A program made the translations under genes and the position numbers. Of a DNA stretch of 64,000 nucleotides, positions 15,568 to 20,776 are shown piece after piece. Each line of letters begins with the position of its first letter. Position 1 is the stretch's first letter. The DNA is from Psychroserpens luteolus (GTDB lineage Bacteria; Bacteroidota; Bacteroidia; Flavobacteriales; Flavobacteriaceae): the NCBI RefSeq assembly GCF_021032705.1, contig NZ_JAHVXI010000001.1, positions 682,001 to 746,000 of the forward strand, given 5' to 3'. The notes under the pieces were generated by a model. The model was not told the DNA's origin, ran no database searches, and saw only the letters and a program-made list of their open reading frames with translations.

Positions 15568-16632
15568 TTATTTAGAAAATGAGTCAAAAATATTTCTCAA
15601 ATCCTTTTTATAAGGTAAATGATCTGCACGTCCTTTTTTAAAGATATCGTTACTATTTCCTTGACCTTTTCGTAATGCTTTTTGTTCTTCATAAGGTAAT
15701 CTATTGACTTCCATACAAGATGTAGAACAACAGTTTTCCATTTTTTCCTTACATGCATCACACTGAATAAATAGTAAATGACAAGCTTCATTAGCACAAT
15801 TGGTATGAAGATCGGCAGGTTCACCACATTGGTGACAGTTGGCAATGACATGATCACTAATACGTTCTGAGCGTCTTTGATCAAACACAAAGTTTTTGCC
15901 TAGAAATTTATTCTCTAAATCATTAGCTTCTACTTGCCTCACATAGTTGATAATACCACCTTCTAATTGAAACACATTTTTGAACCCTTTATGTTTGTAG
16001 TAGGCACTAGCCTTTTCACAACGAATTCCGCCAGTACAATACATCACAAGATTTTTATCTTCTTTATGTTCTTTTAAATCTTCTTCTATGAGATCTAACG
16101 ATTCTCTAAACGTATCTACGTCTGGTGTTACTGCATTTTTAAAATGACCAATCTCACTTTCATAATGATTTCGCATATCAACCAAAACAGTATTTGGATC
16201 TTCGATAAGTTCGTTGAATTTTTTGGCACCTACATGAACGCCTTTATTGGTGACATCAAAAGTGTCGTCATTTAAACCATCAGCTACAATTTTTTTACGC
16301 ACTTTGACTTTCAGTTTTAAAAAGGCAAAATTATCATGCTCAACAGCAATATTTAATCTTACATTTTCTAAAAAGGTAATCGTGTCTAAGTGGTTTTTAA
16401 AGGTTTCAAAGTTTTCTGCAGGAACAGATAATTGCGCGTTGATTCCTTCATGAGCGACATAAATACGGCCTAAGACCTCTTGTTCGTCCCAAGCTAAAAA
16501 TAGGTGGTTTCTAAAAATTTCGGTGTTGCCAATTTTGGCGTACTTGTAGAAAGAGATGGTCAAGCGTTCTTTTCCTGCTTGTTCGATAAGTTCTGCTCTT
16601 TCTTTAGCACTTAAGTTATTGTACAGTTGCAT
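15568..16632 (-). CDS. trhO: tRNA uridine(34) hydroxylase, rhodanese family
   Basis: A 354-residue protein of the TrhO/YceA family, which makes 5-hydroxyuridine at the tRNA wobble position with oxygen. An N-terminal acylphosphatase-like UPF0176 region (AHEGINAQLS) is followed by a rhodanese domain with VMYCTGGIRCEKAS, whose second Cys is the active residue. A C-terminal Cys-rich segment (CHQCGEPADLHTNC ... CDACKEKMENCC) probably binds zinc. The length is typical of the long form. It appears to be a single-gene transcript, with the strong terminator at 16716-16740 isolating it from the region upstream. Confidence 0.9.
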   Translation of the reverse strand: MQLYNNLSAKERAELIEQAGKERLTISFYKYAKIGNTEIFRNHLFLAWDEQEVLGRIYVAHEGINAQLSVPAENFETFKNHLDTITFLENVRLNIAVEHDNFAFLKLKVKVRKKIVADGLNDDTFDVTNKGVHVGAKKFNELIEDPNTVLVDMRNHYESEIGHFKNAVTPDVDTFRESLDLIEEDLKEHKEDKNLVMYCTGGIRCEKASAYYKHKGFKNVFQLEGGIINYVRQVEANDLENKFLGKNFVFDQRRSERISDHVIANCHQCGEPADLHTNCANEACHLLFIQCDACKEKMENCCSTSCMEVNRLPYEEQKALRKGQGNSNDIFKKGRADHLPYKKDLRNIFDSFSK

Positions 16633-16715
16633 GCTATACTAATTTTAAGGTTAAAGATTGATTTAAGTTGCAAAGGTATTATTTTTAGTAGAAAAACAAA
16701 TAAACAGCATAAAAA

Positions 16716-16740
16716 AGCCCTTTAGTTTGACTAAAGGGCT
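16716..16740. terminator. Strong bidirectional terminator upstream of trhO
   Basis: Eleven-bp perfect stem AGCCCTTTAGT / ACTAAAGGGCT with a 3-nt loop, A6 before and T6 after. It lies upstream, not downstream, of trhO, so on the minus strand it must end a transcript arising between here and recA. The only candidate is the short unit starting near 16965. Confidence 0.9.
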
Positions 16741-16751
16741 TTTTTGAGGAC

Positions 16752-16803
16752 TAACTCGTTATTAATATTTTTAAAATGTTCATCTTAAAAATAATACGAG
16801 TTA
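16752..16803 (-). other. Long imperfect hairpin after the 30-codon ORF
   Basis: Arms TAACTCGT (16752-16759) and TATTTTTAA (16766-16774) pair with TTAAAAATA (16785-16793) and ACGAGTTA (16796-16803), giving about 17 base pairs interrupted by an asymmetric internal loop. The right arm contains the TAA stop of the small ORF. The terminator follows directly, so in the minus-strand RNA this is a stable 3' structure. Confidence 0.6.
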
Positions 16804-16893
16804 ACCTCCATCGGCTTTACAGTTACTGTTTACTGTTACAGCTCCTGAAACACCTAATGTCTTGTTAAAAATAATTTTTCTAAAAAATCTCAT
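16801..16893 (-). CDS. Candidate 30-residue small protein in a short terminated transcript
   Basis: ATG at 16893 to TAA at 16803-16801, preceded by AGAGGG, a fair ribosome binding site for this phylum. The peptide has a basic, aromatic start (MRFFRKIIFNKT), then a small-residue stretch (LGVSGAVTVNSN), one Cys and a KADGG end. It sits between an ECF-type promoter (16970-16996) and a strong terminator, which supports a real transcript. It has no recognisable family. It could be a small membrane or signalling peptide, a peptide precursor, or a chance frame inside a regulatory RNA. Confidence 0.45.
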   Translation of the reverse strand: MRFFRKIIFNKTLGVSGAVTVNSNCKADGG

Positions 16894-16969
16894 CCCTCTG
16901 TAAGAATTGAATTTAGGATAAGCCAGTTAAGGCTTGGTTATCATAGCAAGATTTCCCAATCTCAATTAG

Positions 16970-16996
16970 TAGATGCAAAAAGTTAAAAAAGGTTGC
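16970..16996 (-). promoter_or_regulatory. ECF-sigma-type promoter (left member of the recA-flanking pair)
   Basis: Minus strand: GCAACC (16996-16991), a 14-nt spacer, then GCATCTA (16976-16970). An AAC-containing -35 and a short -10 at this spacing are the usual ECF layout. Aligned with the plus-strand site at 18140-18166 over 41 positions (16999-16959 against 18137-18177), 33 match without gaps, including an identical GACGCAACCTTTT start. Transcription would run left toward the terminator at 16716-16740. Confidence 0.65.
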
Positions 16997-17079
16997 GTCA
17001 TAACCCTAAAAAAAATTAAAAGTTGTTGTATTTTAGCTATCCGCTTCAAACAAGTATTCAATTAAAAATATTCAGATCG

Positions 17080-18078
17080 ATGAGCAGTGAAAAAGACGCA
17101 AAATTAAAAGCATTAAAACTAACTTTAGACAAACTAGACAAGGCCTACGGAAAAGGAACCGTTATGAAAATGAGCGACCAAGCAGTCGTTGATGTAGATG
17201 CGATTTCTTCGGGATCTTTAGGACTAGATATCGCTTTAGGCGTTGGTGGTTATCCTAGAGGAAGAGTGATAGAAATATATGGTCCAGAATCATCTGGTAA
17301 AACCACATTAACCTTACATGCTATTGCCGAAGCTCAAAAAGCTGGAGGTATAGCTGCCTTTATTGATGCAGAGCACGCCTTTGATAGAACATATGCTGAG
17401 AATTTAAATGTAGATATCGATAACCTCATCATATCTCAACCAGATAATGGCGAGCAAGCTTTGGAGATTGCAGATAATCTGATTCGTTCAGGAGCGATTG
17501 ACATTGTAGTGATTGATTCGGTTGCTGCATTAACACCTAAAAGTGAAATTGAAGGTGAAATGGGAGACTCTAAAATGGGGTTGCATGCACGTTTAATGTC
17601 TCAAGCACTTAGAAAATTAACCGGTTCCATAAGTAAAACTAATTGTACCGTTATTTTCATTAATCAATTGCGTGAAAAAATTGGTGTGATGTTCGGAAAC
17701 CCCGAAACGACCACTGGAGGAAATGCGCTTAAATTTTATGCTTCGGTTAGATTAGATATTAGACGATCTACACAGATAAAAGAGTCTGATGGTAATGTTG
17801 CAGGAAACAAAACAAGAGTAAAAGTGGTGAAAAATAAAGTAGCTCCTCCTTTTAAAATGTGTGAGTTCGATATTATGTATGGCGAAGGTATTTCTAAAGT
17901 AGGTGAAATATTAGATATTGCTGTAGAACTTGAAATCATTAAAAAAAGCGGCTCATGGTTTAGCTATGGTGACACCAAGTTAGGTCAAGGTAGAGATGCC
18001 GTTAAAGCATTAATCAAAGATAATCCAGAATTGATGGAAGAACTTGAAGAAAAAGTTCGAGAAAGCATTAATTCTTAA
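17080..18078 (+). CDS. recA: Recombinase RecA
   Basis: A 332-residue RecA, the strand-exchange ATPase of homologous recombination and the SOS response. Walker A is GPESSGKT at residues 68-75; [19 protein letters not shown], the L2-loop text ([19 protein letters not shown]) and [11 protein letters not shown] are all present. The open frame continues upstream to 17023, but the family starts near [10 protein letters not shown], so the ATG at 17080 is chosen. It is followed by its own terminator and flanked on both sides by outward-pointing ECF-type promoters. I saw no LexA-type site that I could support. Confidence 0.97.
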
Positions 18079-18101
18079 GTCGAAAGACTAACATAATATA
18101 A

Positions 18102-18126
18102 AAAAATCCCTCTTTTTGGGATTTTT
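18102..18126 (+). terminator. Intrinsic terminator of recA
   Basis: Stem AAAAATCCC / GGGATTTTT with a 7-nt loop, followed by further T residues, 23 bp after the recA stop. It separates recA from the ECF-type promoter at 18140. Confidence 0.85.
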
Positions 18127-18139
18127 TTTGTTTTTAGAC

Positions 18140-18166
18140 GCAACCTTTTGTTATGTTGTGCATCTA
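18140..18166 (+). promoter_or_regulatory. ECF-sigma-type promoter of the lipoprotein-sigma-barrel operon
   Basis: GCAACC (18140-18145), a 14-nt spacer, GCATCTA (18160-18166), then ATAATAGAAAT. Same -35, spacing and -10 as the minus-strand site at 16970-16996. The next genes are a lipoprotein and an ECF sigma factor, so autoregulation is the simplest reading. Inferred from sequence only. Confidence 0.65.
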
Positions 18167-18200
18167 ATAATAGAAATCGATACGTATTTCTAAATTTTAA

Positions 18201-18617
18201 ATGAATATGAAAAAGATATTTTTATTAAGTTTTTTGATGTTTTCGTTGTTCTCATGTAATATCTCTGACGACAACAACCCAAATTTTTATTATGAAGCGC
18301 TACCTATTGAATCTGTGGTTATTCCAGAAACATTTCAATTTGGTGAAACCTACGAGATTTTGTTGACTTACATTAAGCCAACAGATTGCCATGTTTACAA
18401 TAACTTATTTTATGAAAGTGATTTAAATCAACGTGATATTGCAATAGTAACTGCTGTATTTCCAGATAATGGCTGTAATGATCTTAATGAAGAAGAAGAA
18501 GTCTCTTTTAATTTTAAAGTGACTAACACAGGAACTTACACCTTTAGGTTTTGGCAAGGTAATGACGAGAGTGGTCTAGACACGTATTTAATTGTTGAAG
18601 TTCCAGTAGAAGAATAA
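18201..18617 (+). CDS. Small predicted lipoprotein, first gene of an ECF sigma operon
   Basis: A 138-residue protein with a short signal ending in the lipobox LFSC (MKKIFLLSFLMFSLFSC), followed by an acidic, beta-rich mature part with two later Cys (PTDCHVYNN, DNGCNDLNEEEE) and an acidic tail. ATGs at 18201 and 18207 are both possible. I do not recognise a named family. It lies 34 bp after an ECF-type promoter and 21 bp before the sigma gene, so it is likely cotranscribed. A role as a surface or periplasmic sensor, or as a target of the sigma factor, is inference. Confidence 0.75.
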   Translation: MNMKKIFLLSFLMFSLFSCNISDDNNPNFYYEALPIESVVIPETFQFGETYEILLTYIKPTDCHVYNNLFYESDLNQRDIAIVTAVFPDNGCNDLNEEEEVSFNFKVTNTGTYTFRFWQGNDESGLDTYLIVEVPVEE

Positions 18618-18638: not shown

Positions 18639-19181
18639 TTGAGTTTAGAACAACTCATAGAGCGATGTAAAAAAAATGATGCTCAAGCACAAAGTCAACT
18701 ATATAAGCTATATGCGAGTAAACTGTTTTCGATTTGCTTGAAGTATTCACGTAACTATGCAGAAGCAGAAGATAACTTGCAAGACGCTTACATTACGATT
18801 TTTAAAAAATTTGATCAGTTTAAAAATCAAGGCTCTTTAGAAGGTTGGATGAAACGTATAACCATCAACACTGCTCTTCAACGCTACAGAAGTGCTGGTG
18901 TTTTTGACATTATTAATGAAGATCAAATTGAAGATGTAAGCGTAGAAGTTGATGATGATAATATAAGTATCGATTTTTTGCTGAATATTATTCAAGAATT
19001 ACCCGATCGTTATCGGTTGGTATTTAATTTATATGCTTTGGACGATTATTCGCACAAGGAAATTGCAAACCTGTTAGATATTTCGACAGGGACATCAAAA
19101 TCAAATCTAGCTAGAGCTCGATTGATTTTAAAAGATAAAATAGAACAATACAAAGCGAGACCCAACTCGCAAAGTTTATAA
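18639..19181 (+). CDS. ECF RNA polymerase sigma factor
   Basis: A 180-residue sigma-70 family protein of the ECF group. Region 2 (SKLFSICLKYSRNYAEAEDNLQDAYITIFKKFDQF) and region 4 (LPDRYRLVFNLYALDDYSHKEIANLLDIS) are clear, with no region 1 or 3. The start is TTG at 18639, giving (M)SLEQLIERC, the usual start of this flavobacterial group; no nearby ATG works. Its stop overlaps the ATG of the next gene by one base, so translation is probably coupled. It likely reads the ECF-type promoters on both sides of recA. Confidence 0.9.
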   Translation: MSLEQLIERCKKNDAQAQSQLYKLYASKLFSICLKYSRNYAEAEDNLQDAYITIFKKFDQFKNQGSLEGWMKRITINTALQRYRSAGVFDIINEDQIEDVSVEVDDDNISIDFLLNIIQELPDRYRLVFNLYALDDYSHKEIANLLDISTGTSKSNLARARLILKDKIEQYKARPNSQSL

Positions 19182-20776
19182 TGAGTGAAAAGAAAAACAT
19201 AGACAAACTCTTTAAGGAGCAACTCAAAGATTTTGAGGTTGCACCTCCTGAGGCTGTCTGGGAAAATATAGAACAAGAACTCCACAAAGACAAACGTAAA
19301 CGTAGAGTTATTCCTATTTGGTGGCGAATAGCAGGTGTTGCTGCTGCATTACTATTGTTGTTTACTGTAGGAAACACTTTATTTAATACTAATGGTGATA
19401 ATACTATCGAACAAGAAGTTGTTGATACTGATAAATCGAATACTAATTCTATCAATGATAGTAATGATGTTACAAATCCTTCAGATTTAAACACATCAAA
19501 CAATCAAGATAAGAACCCGATTGTCGATAACGATAGTTCTAAAAATGAAGAAGGCATTAATAATTCTTCTGAACAGTTAAATGATAATTTAACGACTACT
19601 GACGATTCAACCACTAAAACTAATGTTGCATCTTCTAATGAAGACGAGAAAAAATCATCATCTAAAAACTCCTCTTTAATTAAAAACAAATCTTTAAAAG
19701 AAAATGCTGTTGCAAATCAAAACAACATTAAGCTTAATACTACGAATAAAGATAAAACTAAGGTGTCTATTGATAACGAAAAGAATGCTGTAGTCAATAG
19801 CTCTAATACGCCTAGATCGAATAACAATATAGATTTGAATCCTGTTAAAAAGGAAAAGTCTGAAATTGACAAGCTTATTAAAAAAACAACATCATCTAAA
19901 GAGACTCAGGTAACTTCGGCAAATAATTCTGAAAAAGAAAACGGGACTACTACTATAGATACATCTAAAACAAAAGACGTTTTTAAAGAAGAAAATGCTA
20001 TTGAAAAAGCTATTGTCGAAGCTGAGCAAAATAAAGATGAAGTTGATGAAACCGAAGCGCCTATAAAACGTTGGAGTATCGCTCCTAATATAGCGCCTGT
20101 TTATTTTAATACCTTAGGAAAAGGGTCACCTATTGATGATCAATTTATAAACAATACCAAAGAAGGTGATATCAATGTAAGTTATGGTGTTAAAGGTAGT
20201 TATGCGATAAATAAAAAATTAAAAATTAGAGCAGGAATTAATAAGGTAGATCTAGGATATACTACAAATAATGTTGTTGCTTTTAGTAGACCAAGTAGCT
20301 CTGGCTCAAGCCGTCAGTTACAAAACATTAAATTACACGATACTACAACAACATTTATAAGTGCAAATAGTATAAGTTATACAACTGGACCTGAAATTTT
20401 GTTTACAAAAGAACAAGGCTCAATAGATCAGCAGTTAGGTTTTATTGAAGTTCCTATTGAGGTTGAATACAATTTAATAGATAAAAAAATAGGCCTAAAT
20501 CTTATCGGAGGTTTTAGCACATTATTTTTAAGTAACAATGAAATTTACTCCGTTCAAAATAATGGTGATAGAGCGCTTTTAGGTGAGGCTACAAATATTA
20601 ATGATATGAGTTATAGTGCCAATTTCGGAATTGGAGTTAACTATAACATTTCAAAACAATTACGATTTAATCTTGAACCCACGTTCAAGTATCAAATTAA
20701 CACATTCAATGATACGTCTGGTGATTTTCAACCATTCTTCATTGGTGTTTATACAGGACTTAGTTTTAAGTTTTAG
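19181..20776 (+). CDS. Anti-sigma-like membrane protein with C-terminal beta-barrel-like domain
   Basis: A 531-residue protein. The cytoplasmic N-terminus (IDKLFKEQLKDFEVAPPEAVWENIEQEL) resembles the short sigma-binding regions of flavobacterial anti-sigma partners. One membrane segment follows (about residues 48-65, IAGVAAALLLLFTVG), then a long linker (about 70-280) rich in Asn, Ser, Lys, Asp and Thr. The C-terminal 230 residues show alternating hydrophobic strands and end in GLSFKF, like an outer-membrane beta-barrel. Such a protein could span the periplasm and link outer-membrane state to the sigma factor next door. The topology and anti-sigma role are inferred from layout and gene order. 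Confidence 0.75.
   Translation: MSEKKNIDKLFKEQLKDFEVAPPEAVWENIEQELHKDKRKRRVIPIWWRIAGVAAALLLLFTVGNTLFNTNGDNTIEQEVVDTDKSNTNSINDSNDVTNPSDLNTSNNQDKNPIVDNDSSKNEEGINNSSEQLNDNLTTTDDSTTKTNVASSNEDEKKSSSKNSSLIKNKSLKENAVANQNNIKLNTTNKDKTKVSIDNEKNAVVNSSNTPRSNNNIDLNPVKKEKSEIDKLIKKTTSSKETQVTSANNSEKENGTTTIDTSKTKDVFKEENAIEKAIVEAEQNKDEVDETEAPIKRWSIAPNIAPVYFNTLGKGSPIDDQFINNTKEGDINVSYGVKGSYAINKKLKIRAGINKVDLGYTTNNVVAFSRPSSSGSSRQLQNIKLHDTTTTFISANSISYTTGPEILFTKEQGSIDQQLGFIEVPIEVEYNLIDKKIGLNLIGGFSTLFLSNNEIYSVQNNGDRALLGEATNINDMSYSANFGIGVNYNISKQLRFNLEPTFKYQINTFNDTSGDFQPFFIGVYTGLSFKF

Follow-up and report, generated by a model that had tools for sequence, protein, structure and literature searches.

In a 64,000-nt stretch of Psychroserpens luteolus DNA (the window), two closely matching sequence elements, P1 and P2, lie on either side of recA and point away from it (Table 1), and comparison across relatives makes it very probable that both are promoters of one ECF sigma factor. 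P2 would open the operon that encodes this sigma factor, and P1 likely makes a functional transcript, short in length, that is closed by a predicted terminator and in many lineages carries a conserved peptide ORF. The motif shared by P1 and P2 marks a candidate regulon that is wider than the two recA-flanking sites and takes in 7 other strict sites in this genome.

Table 1 Features on both sides of recA, with positions in the window.
Feature	Position	Strand	Remarks
Intrinsic terminator (predicted)	16711..16745	-	Closes the P1 unit, before trhO
Predicted RNA hairpin GAGGTTAACTCG...CGAGTTAGTCCTC	16746..16808	-	Stop codon in 5' arm
30-codon ORF MRFFRKIIFNKTLGVSGAVTVNSNCKADGG	16801..16893	-	Stop included in span
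Conserved 5' element TTGAGATTGGGAAATCTTGCTATGA	16941..16965	-	ATG opens a 5-codon mini-ORF here
P1, ECF-type promoter (predicted) GACGCAACCTTTT-N10-GCATCTA	16970..16999	-	Points away from recA
recA	17080..18078	+	Between P1 and P2
Terminator-like hairpin 3' of recA	18100..18128	+	
P2, ECF-type promoter (predicted)	18137..18166	+	Opens sigma operon; same motif as P1
Small predicted lipoprotein, 138 aa	18201..18617	+	First gene of P2 operon; relative in 75/80 loci
ECF sigma factor, TTG start	18639..19181	+	Proposed reader of P1 and P2
Anti-sigma, 531 aa (Dma-like)	19181..20776	+	One TM-like segment, low-complexity tether, C-terminal outer-membrane barrel

The first-pass annotation had singled out GACGCAACCTTTTTTAACTTTTTGCATCTA at 16999-16970 on the minus strand and GACGCAACCTTTTGTTATGTTGTGCATCTA at 18137-18166 on the plus strand, identical at 33 of 41 positions, and a recheck of the window reproduced the sequences, coordinates, strands, spacing and identity. 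The core GACGCAACCTTTT-N10-GCATCTA is present in exactly two copies in the window, both facing outward from recA, and the extended form GCAACCTTTT-N10-GCATCTA gave the same number of matches (2, against 0 in 100 shuffles). It had also been claimed that nothing similar occurs elsewhere in the window, which holds: GCAACC-N14-GCATCTA had two matches without mismatch and none with 1 mismatch in the 64 kb, and the six further matches with 2-3 mismatches bring the total to 8 against 10.4 expected, which is chance level. ECF promoters have an AAC-containing -35 and a short -10 at about this distance, and both sites combine an AAC-containing -35, a short -10 at ~16-17 nt and a position 5' of the genes proposed to be regulated. 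A search of positions 16600-18300 against Rfam at gathering thresholds returned no match.

The pair is conserved well beyond this genome. Within the genus, P1 was found in 23/23 loci with 0-1 mismatches, always pointing outward and 68-83 nt 5' of the recA start, and P2 in 22/22 testable loci with 0-2 mismatches; in the remaining locus (L071) a contig edge falls on the P2 side, and in L080 P2 is 316 nt away. For other genera, we analyzed 80 recA loci, most of them the entries with the highest recA identity, together with some peptide-bearing loci, a sample that leans to closer relatives, and accepted sites within 450 nt of recA with at most 2 mismatches. P1 was present in 75/80, P2 in 76/80 and both in 72/80 of these loci, while inward-facing controls gave 0/80 on either side and shuffling of the upstream regions 0/1600. 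A separate scan of named genomes, in which loci were found with the sigma profile and P1 was tested with at most 3 mismatches and a 10-nt inner spacer, detected a P2-like site with 0-3 mismatches no more than 2.2 kb 5' of the sigma gene in 70/80 loci and P1 in only 39 of the 69 loci in which the upstream side of recA was present; P1 was not found in any of the testable loci that carry the label Flavobacterium sp. or F. subsaxonicum (7) or Aequorivita (2). Scanning relatives for conservation of the paired sites and for the motif in front of ECF operons had been proposed as checks on the original observation, and on both counts the observation is upheld. Because sigma genes on fetched stretches that lack recA are likewise preceded by P2-like sites (L254, 2 mismatches; L268, 3), the flanking of recA looks incidental, and on this comparison recA is probably a bystander.

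Genome-wide, the motif is not unique to the window. Five perfect GCAACC-N14-GCATCTA sites occur in the whole genome (3.84 Mb); this short pattern with up to 2 mismatches is barely enriched (41 against 32 for the reversed control). We therefore use a strict pattern, GCAACCTTTTN{9,11}NNATCT, with the reversed pattern as the control, and it had 9 sites in the genome against 0 for the control. By inspection, 7 of the 9 are located shortly 5' of genes for predicted lipoproteins or secreted proteins, the sigma operon included. The targets are L021, L023 (the P2 operon), L024 (Calx-beta domains), L025 (LVIVD-like, under the domain cutoff), L026, L028 (a lipoprotein followed by an LVIVD protein) and L029 (CarboxypepD_reg-like, narrowly under the cutoff). 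The eighth site is P1, and the ninth, L027, has no clear target, with a 62-codon frame beginning ~180 nt downstream. All 23 genus genomes contain strict sites, and the reversed pattern matched once each in 3 of them. In one genome, two identical copies of the site (G020:C1:44627 and 45326) lie 699 nt apart, perhaps in a duplicated regulon member.

The P1 unit begins with a conserved 5' element, whose ATG is the peptide's own start in some relatives with a 26-nt leader (L087, L196); GCTAT[GC][AT] occurs within 80 nt in 76 of 98 P1 units and in 1.1% of shuffles. In six genus loci (L064, L065, L068, L077, L078, L079) ~130 extra nt separate this element from the peptide ORF. On the far side of the unit, we noted by eye a box, TACCTTTG, at 16678-16671 on the minus strand, just 5' of trhO. 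The ORF has exactly 30 codons in 23/23 genus loci, its third codon positions are the most variable, and with a mean dN of 0.14, a mean dS of 0.66 and a median dN/dS of 0.22 (252 of 253 pairs usable), these substitution patterns indicate that it is under purifying selection in the genus. Across relatives, the peptide is 28-30 aa long; its start is basic, its middle hydrophobic and its C-terminus near-invariant (N[SG][NS]CK[AS]DGG, mostly reading NSNCKADGG). At E<1e-3, a peptide profile matched 55 of the 299 genomes of the family (a hand count, one match partial). Among the best 30 peptide loci, 3 of them from the genus itself, recA lies alongside and a GCAACC site (0-2 mismatches) precedes the ORF in 30/30. 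In an order-wide sample of 346 genomes, 27 of them listed, the peptide was found in 7 at E<=1e-3, all being the genome itself or members of the same genus or family; a match in G152 lies inside a 310-aa frame and is doubtful. The profile had no sequence relatives in the PDB (E<=1), and the family, which spans many genera of the Flavobacteriaceae, is apparently unannotated. On balance, we lean towards a translated, functional peptide.

Two properties bear on where such a peptide might reside. Its best 15-residue hydropathy is modest here (1.31, compared with 2.03 in one relative), which weakens the idea of a membrane peptide. Lipoboxes usually have L, V or I at position -3; at the corresponding position relative to Cys25 most members of the family have Asn, and in L187 the Cys itself is replaced by Phe.

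For the RNA structure we used 46 segments with a usable 3' portion, of which 40 were aligned; the structure was drawn from folds of the same sequences, which favours it in the following figures. In the 40 sequences, 92% of the cells in the 10 basal pairs of the stop-codon hairpin were paired; 3 of these pairs showed changes on both sides, and some of the breaks in helix 1 are due to gap placement. The terminator was paired in 98.3% of cells, with both-side changes at 8 of 10 pairs. Sliding the partners lowered overall pairing from 95% to 26-51%, and for four of five covariation measures 0-3 of 500 shuffles attained the observed value; for the fifth, further pair types, 56 of 500 did.

The peptide was detected at >=20 bits in 43 of the 80 loci of other genera, and in the other 37 nothing reached this score, so the peptide would be dispensable. 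Four of the peptide-less loci (L115, L121, L133, L156) look by eye like decayed peptide genes. This raises the alternative that the product of P1 is a sigma-dependent regulatory small RNA, to which the ORF present in some lineages would be secondary. In its favour, 32 of the 37 peptide-less loci still pass the P1 test; a terminator was predicted for 31 peptide-less units, 20 of which are 78-109 nt long; and in an alignment these 20 share a block around TTTGCTATGAAA / GCTATGAAA (18/20, with ATC allowed for ATG) and, for most of them, a second block around GACTAACTC (variants in several) together with the predicted terminator stem. Moreover, L141 and L163 keep the surrounding element despite a changed ATG. 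Against it stands the purifying selection on the ORF within the genus. In addition, two other genes of the regulon (L025, L029) have GCTATGAAA around their start codons, and its conservation is therefore partly explained by translation initiation, while exact complements of the GCTATGAAA block, searched as 12-mers of this one block in 16 genomes, were not enriched (29, including the P1 loci, against 41 for the reversed control). We consider an RNA-only product to be the less likely but serious competitor of a translated peptide.

The candidate reader of P1 and P2, a protein of 180 aa, matches Sigma70_r2 and Sigma70_r4_2 above cutoff and thus has the regions 2 and 4 only that characterize ECF sigma factors; its closest match among the named genomes, from an uncultured Psychroserpens, is 95% identical. 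Reading frames across the genus show L or V before SLEQ/SLDQ-like sigma starts, which suggests a conserved non-ATG start. Relatives of the sigma and anti-sigma lie 3' of recA in 78/80 loci. The leading lipoprotein, which was additionally undetected in L141, L179 and L180, gave no match to Pfam at E<=0.001 and none to an NCBIfam family above the respective cutoff. To relate sigma and sites, we took a census of 299 genomes of the family, calling a genome sigma-positive if it had a match at E<=1e-55 (241 positive, 58 negative); the figures are hand counts, and 38 of the 58 negative genomes were assigned by elimination. A strict site was present in 201 of 241 sigma-positive and 8 of 58 sigma-negative genomes, 40 sigma-positive genomes being without one, and the reversed pattern in 53 of 241 and 10 of 58, respectively; with 8/58 strict against 10/58 reversed matches, sigma-negative genomes are at background level. 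Sigma-negative genomes are often small, and among the 15 of at least 2.5 Mb, 3 carry a strict site (hand count); genome size is a confounder of part of this association.

Natural losses and displacements of the sigma gene bear on the same relationship. In L190, the recA locus of genome G067, the sigma gene, P1 and P2 are all missing. G283 (L158) has no close sigma orthologue, its congener G062 keeping one at 81% identity; the sigma operon is lost, an orphan P2 sits right after recA, and P1 (2 mismatches) and an intact peptide ORF are retained. In L161 (G041) the operon is displaced, with the sigma start 1.95 kb from recA, and the strict site has stayed with it, ~0.5 kb before the sigma gene. 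These cases fit the proposal that the sigma factor reads the sites, although what G283 retains after its loss of the operon also counts against it, as do four of the 80 recA loci of other genera (L139, L140, L146, L167), which have the sigma gene and fail the P1 test. A different possibility is that several ECF sigma factors with overlapping specificity read the sites rather than specifically the one at 18639. The genome itself has 23 ECF-like matches to the sigma query, among them a paralogue of 55% identity (G000:C11:67441-67968); two matches at E<=1e-55 were found in G000, G001 and G021; and, in the accessible text of a study of F. psychrophilum, overlap between ECF regulons is suggested (PMC9723704). 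However, most sigma-positive genomes of the family have a single match at E<=1e-55 (at most 11 candidates scored per genome) and yet carry sites, and G067 and its congener G288, which have other ECF-like matches but no close orthologue, have zero strict sites. We regard such shared reading as improbable.

We infer both transcription from the sites and the identity of the sigma factor from these genomic comparisons. Sigma losses, the co-occurrence of sigma and motif and the displaced operon in L161 support the claim of the first-pass annotation that one ECF sigma, encoded at 18639, would read both sites. Its further claim that this sigma controls its own operon and a short transcript is likewise backed by comparison, and needs to be widened by the 7 other sites, the peptide ORF in the short transcript and the incidental position of recA.

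The order P1, short ORF, hairpin, terminator and trhO, with trhO on the other side of the peptide in 28 of the 30 best peptide loci, might suggest that P1 serves trhO and that peptide and terminator form a leader-peptide attenuator of this tRNA-modification gene. In the predicted folds, however, the stop-codon hairpin and the terminator are separate stems; of the 37 loci without a detected peptide, 35 have a detected trhO; and the TACCTTTG box between terminator and trhO fits the Bacteroidetes sigma-A consensus TAnnTTTG given in the accessible text of PMC9723704, so that trhO probably has its own promoter. On these three grounds, we set the attenuator aside as very unlikely. That the sites are not promoters at all but, for instance, a repeat that arose by chance or two copies of a site bound by another regulator is hardly credible given their fixed outward orientation, 10-nt inner spacer and AAC in the -35-like box, the start codons that follow closely on 7 of the 9 sites in the genome, the terminator after P1 and the zero inward-facing copies in the 80 loci.

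The third gene of the P2 operon encodes a putative anti-sigma factor. Read by eye, its sequence begins with a short N-terminal region and continues through a TM-like segment (IPIWWRIAGVAAALLLLFTVG) and a long tether rich in Asn, Ser and Lys to a C-terminal part. Orthologues share conserved N-terminal columns, and outer-membrane barrel families of Pfam were matched by many of them (OMP_b-brl in 32/51, OMP_b-brl_2 in 22/51), the barrel match of the window's own protein being weak (E 0.0013; 19.4 bits, with the cutoff at 28.7). A PDB search with the anti-sigma profile found no sequence relatives (E<=0.01). The Dma family, as far as described in the accessible text of PMC13088901, consists of an N-terminal region, one TM segment, a long tether and a C-terminal beta-barrel. 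With a C-terminal outer-membrane beta-barrel, as judged by its orthologues, and a gene that adjoins that of its sigma factor, the protein resembles the Dma family in sequence layout.

Together, these observations suggest a working model in which an autoregulated ECF sigma factor of the envelope-stress type (18639-19181) would be restrained by a Dma-like anti-sigma that probably spans from the cytoplasm to the outer membrane. Once released, the sigma factor would transcribe its own lipoprotein-sigma-anti-sigma operon from P2 as well as other lipoprotein genes around the genome. From P1, it would generate a short independent mRNA of ~260 nt that encodes the 30-aa peptide, with the peptide's stop codon held in the conserved hairpin, and ends at the terminator before trhO. 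As a guess, to which we attach low confidence, the peptide may sit in the inner membrane with its basic end in and its Cys-Lys-x-Asp-Gly-Gly end out and feed back on the envelope response, tuning it. More broadly, and with slightly more doubt than belief, we speculate that the P1 units form a new Flavobacteriaceae family of ECF-controlled dual-function transcripts, combining a CKADGG membrane microprotein whose stop codon lies in a hairpin with an RNA that keeps a function of its own after decay of the ORF in several lineages, and that they represent the microprotein/noncoding arm of a stress response under a dual membrane-spanning anti-sigma. A peptide family with strong RNA structure and repeated loss of the ORF offers a natural setting in which to ask whether peptide, RNA or both are at work.

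E. coli RpoE is an autoregulated envelope ECF sigma factor that has short, terminator-ended sRNAs, MicA, RybB and MicL, in its regulon. By analogy, the system proposed here would similarly join an autoregulated envelope ECF sigma to short terminator-ended transcripts. It differs from the RpoE sRNAs in that the short unit often has a conserved peptide ORF and in that our search (one block, exact 12-mers) found no base-pairing targets for a conserved seed.

Closer to P. luteolus, F. psychrophilum SM6, a member of the same family, has ECF-type promoters of which, in the accessible text of PMC9723704, one precedes a sigma/anti-sigma pair and one lies at a rhodanese gene annotated YceA. We considered whether the ECF promoter class described there is the same motif and rejected this: that class is marked by a CGT box within its -10 region and has T9SS genes as targets (PMC9723704), whereas the present motif reads GCAACCTTTT-N10-GCATCT and has lipoprotein genes as targets. 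In the accessible portions of the literature on the motif, the sigma factor, Dma, recA and small RNAs, we found nothing on the paired sites or the peptide, and in those on Dma-type anti-sigma systems no promoter motif for such a system.

The nearest known counterpart is the Das/Dma arrangement of Bacteroides thetaiotaomicron (Dma1, Dma2), which, as presented in the accessible text of PMC13088901, is alike in its compact operon and in the layout of an anti-sigma that adjoins its sigma factor. There, deletion of dma2 caused a strong rise of das2 and neighbouring genes, in line with autoregulation, and Das2 was assigned to ECF21 (PMC13088901). In contrast, a lipoprotein gene leads the operon in P. 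luteolus; relative to the accessible account in PMC13088901, additions are a putative promoter motif, an inferred regulon and, with the same type of promoter, a divergent unit for a peptide or RNA. Dma-type anti-sigma systems are a recent discovery in Bacteroidota, and for a system that resembles them we predict a promoter motif, a regulon of lipoprotein genes and an autoregulatory loop. The autoregulated ECF/Dma-like pair is the known part of this system; what is new is its motif, together with the inferred regulon and the divergent unit that carries the peptide or RNA.
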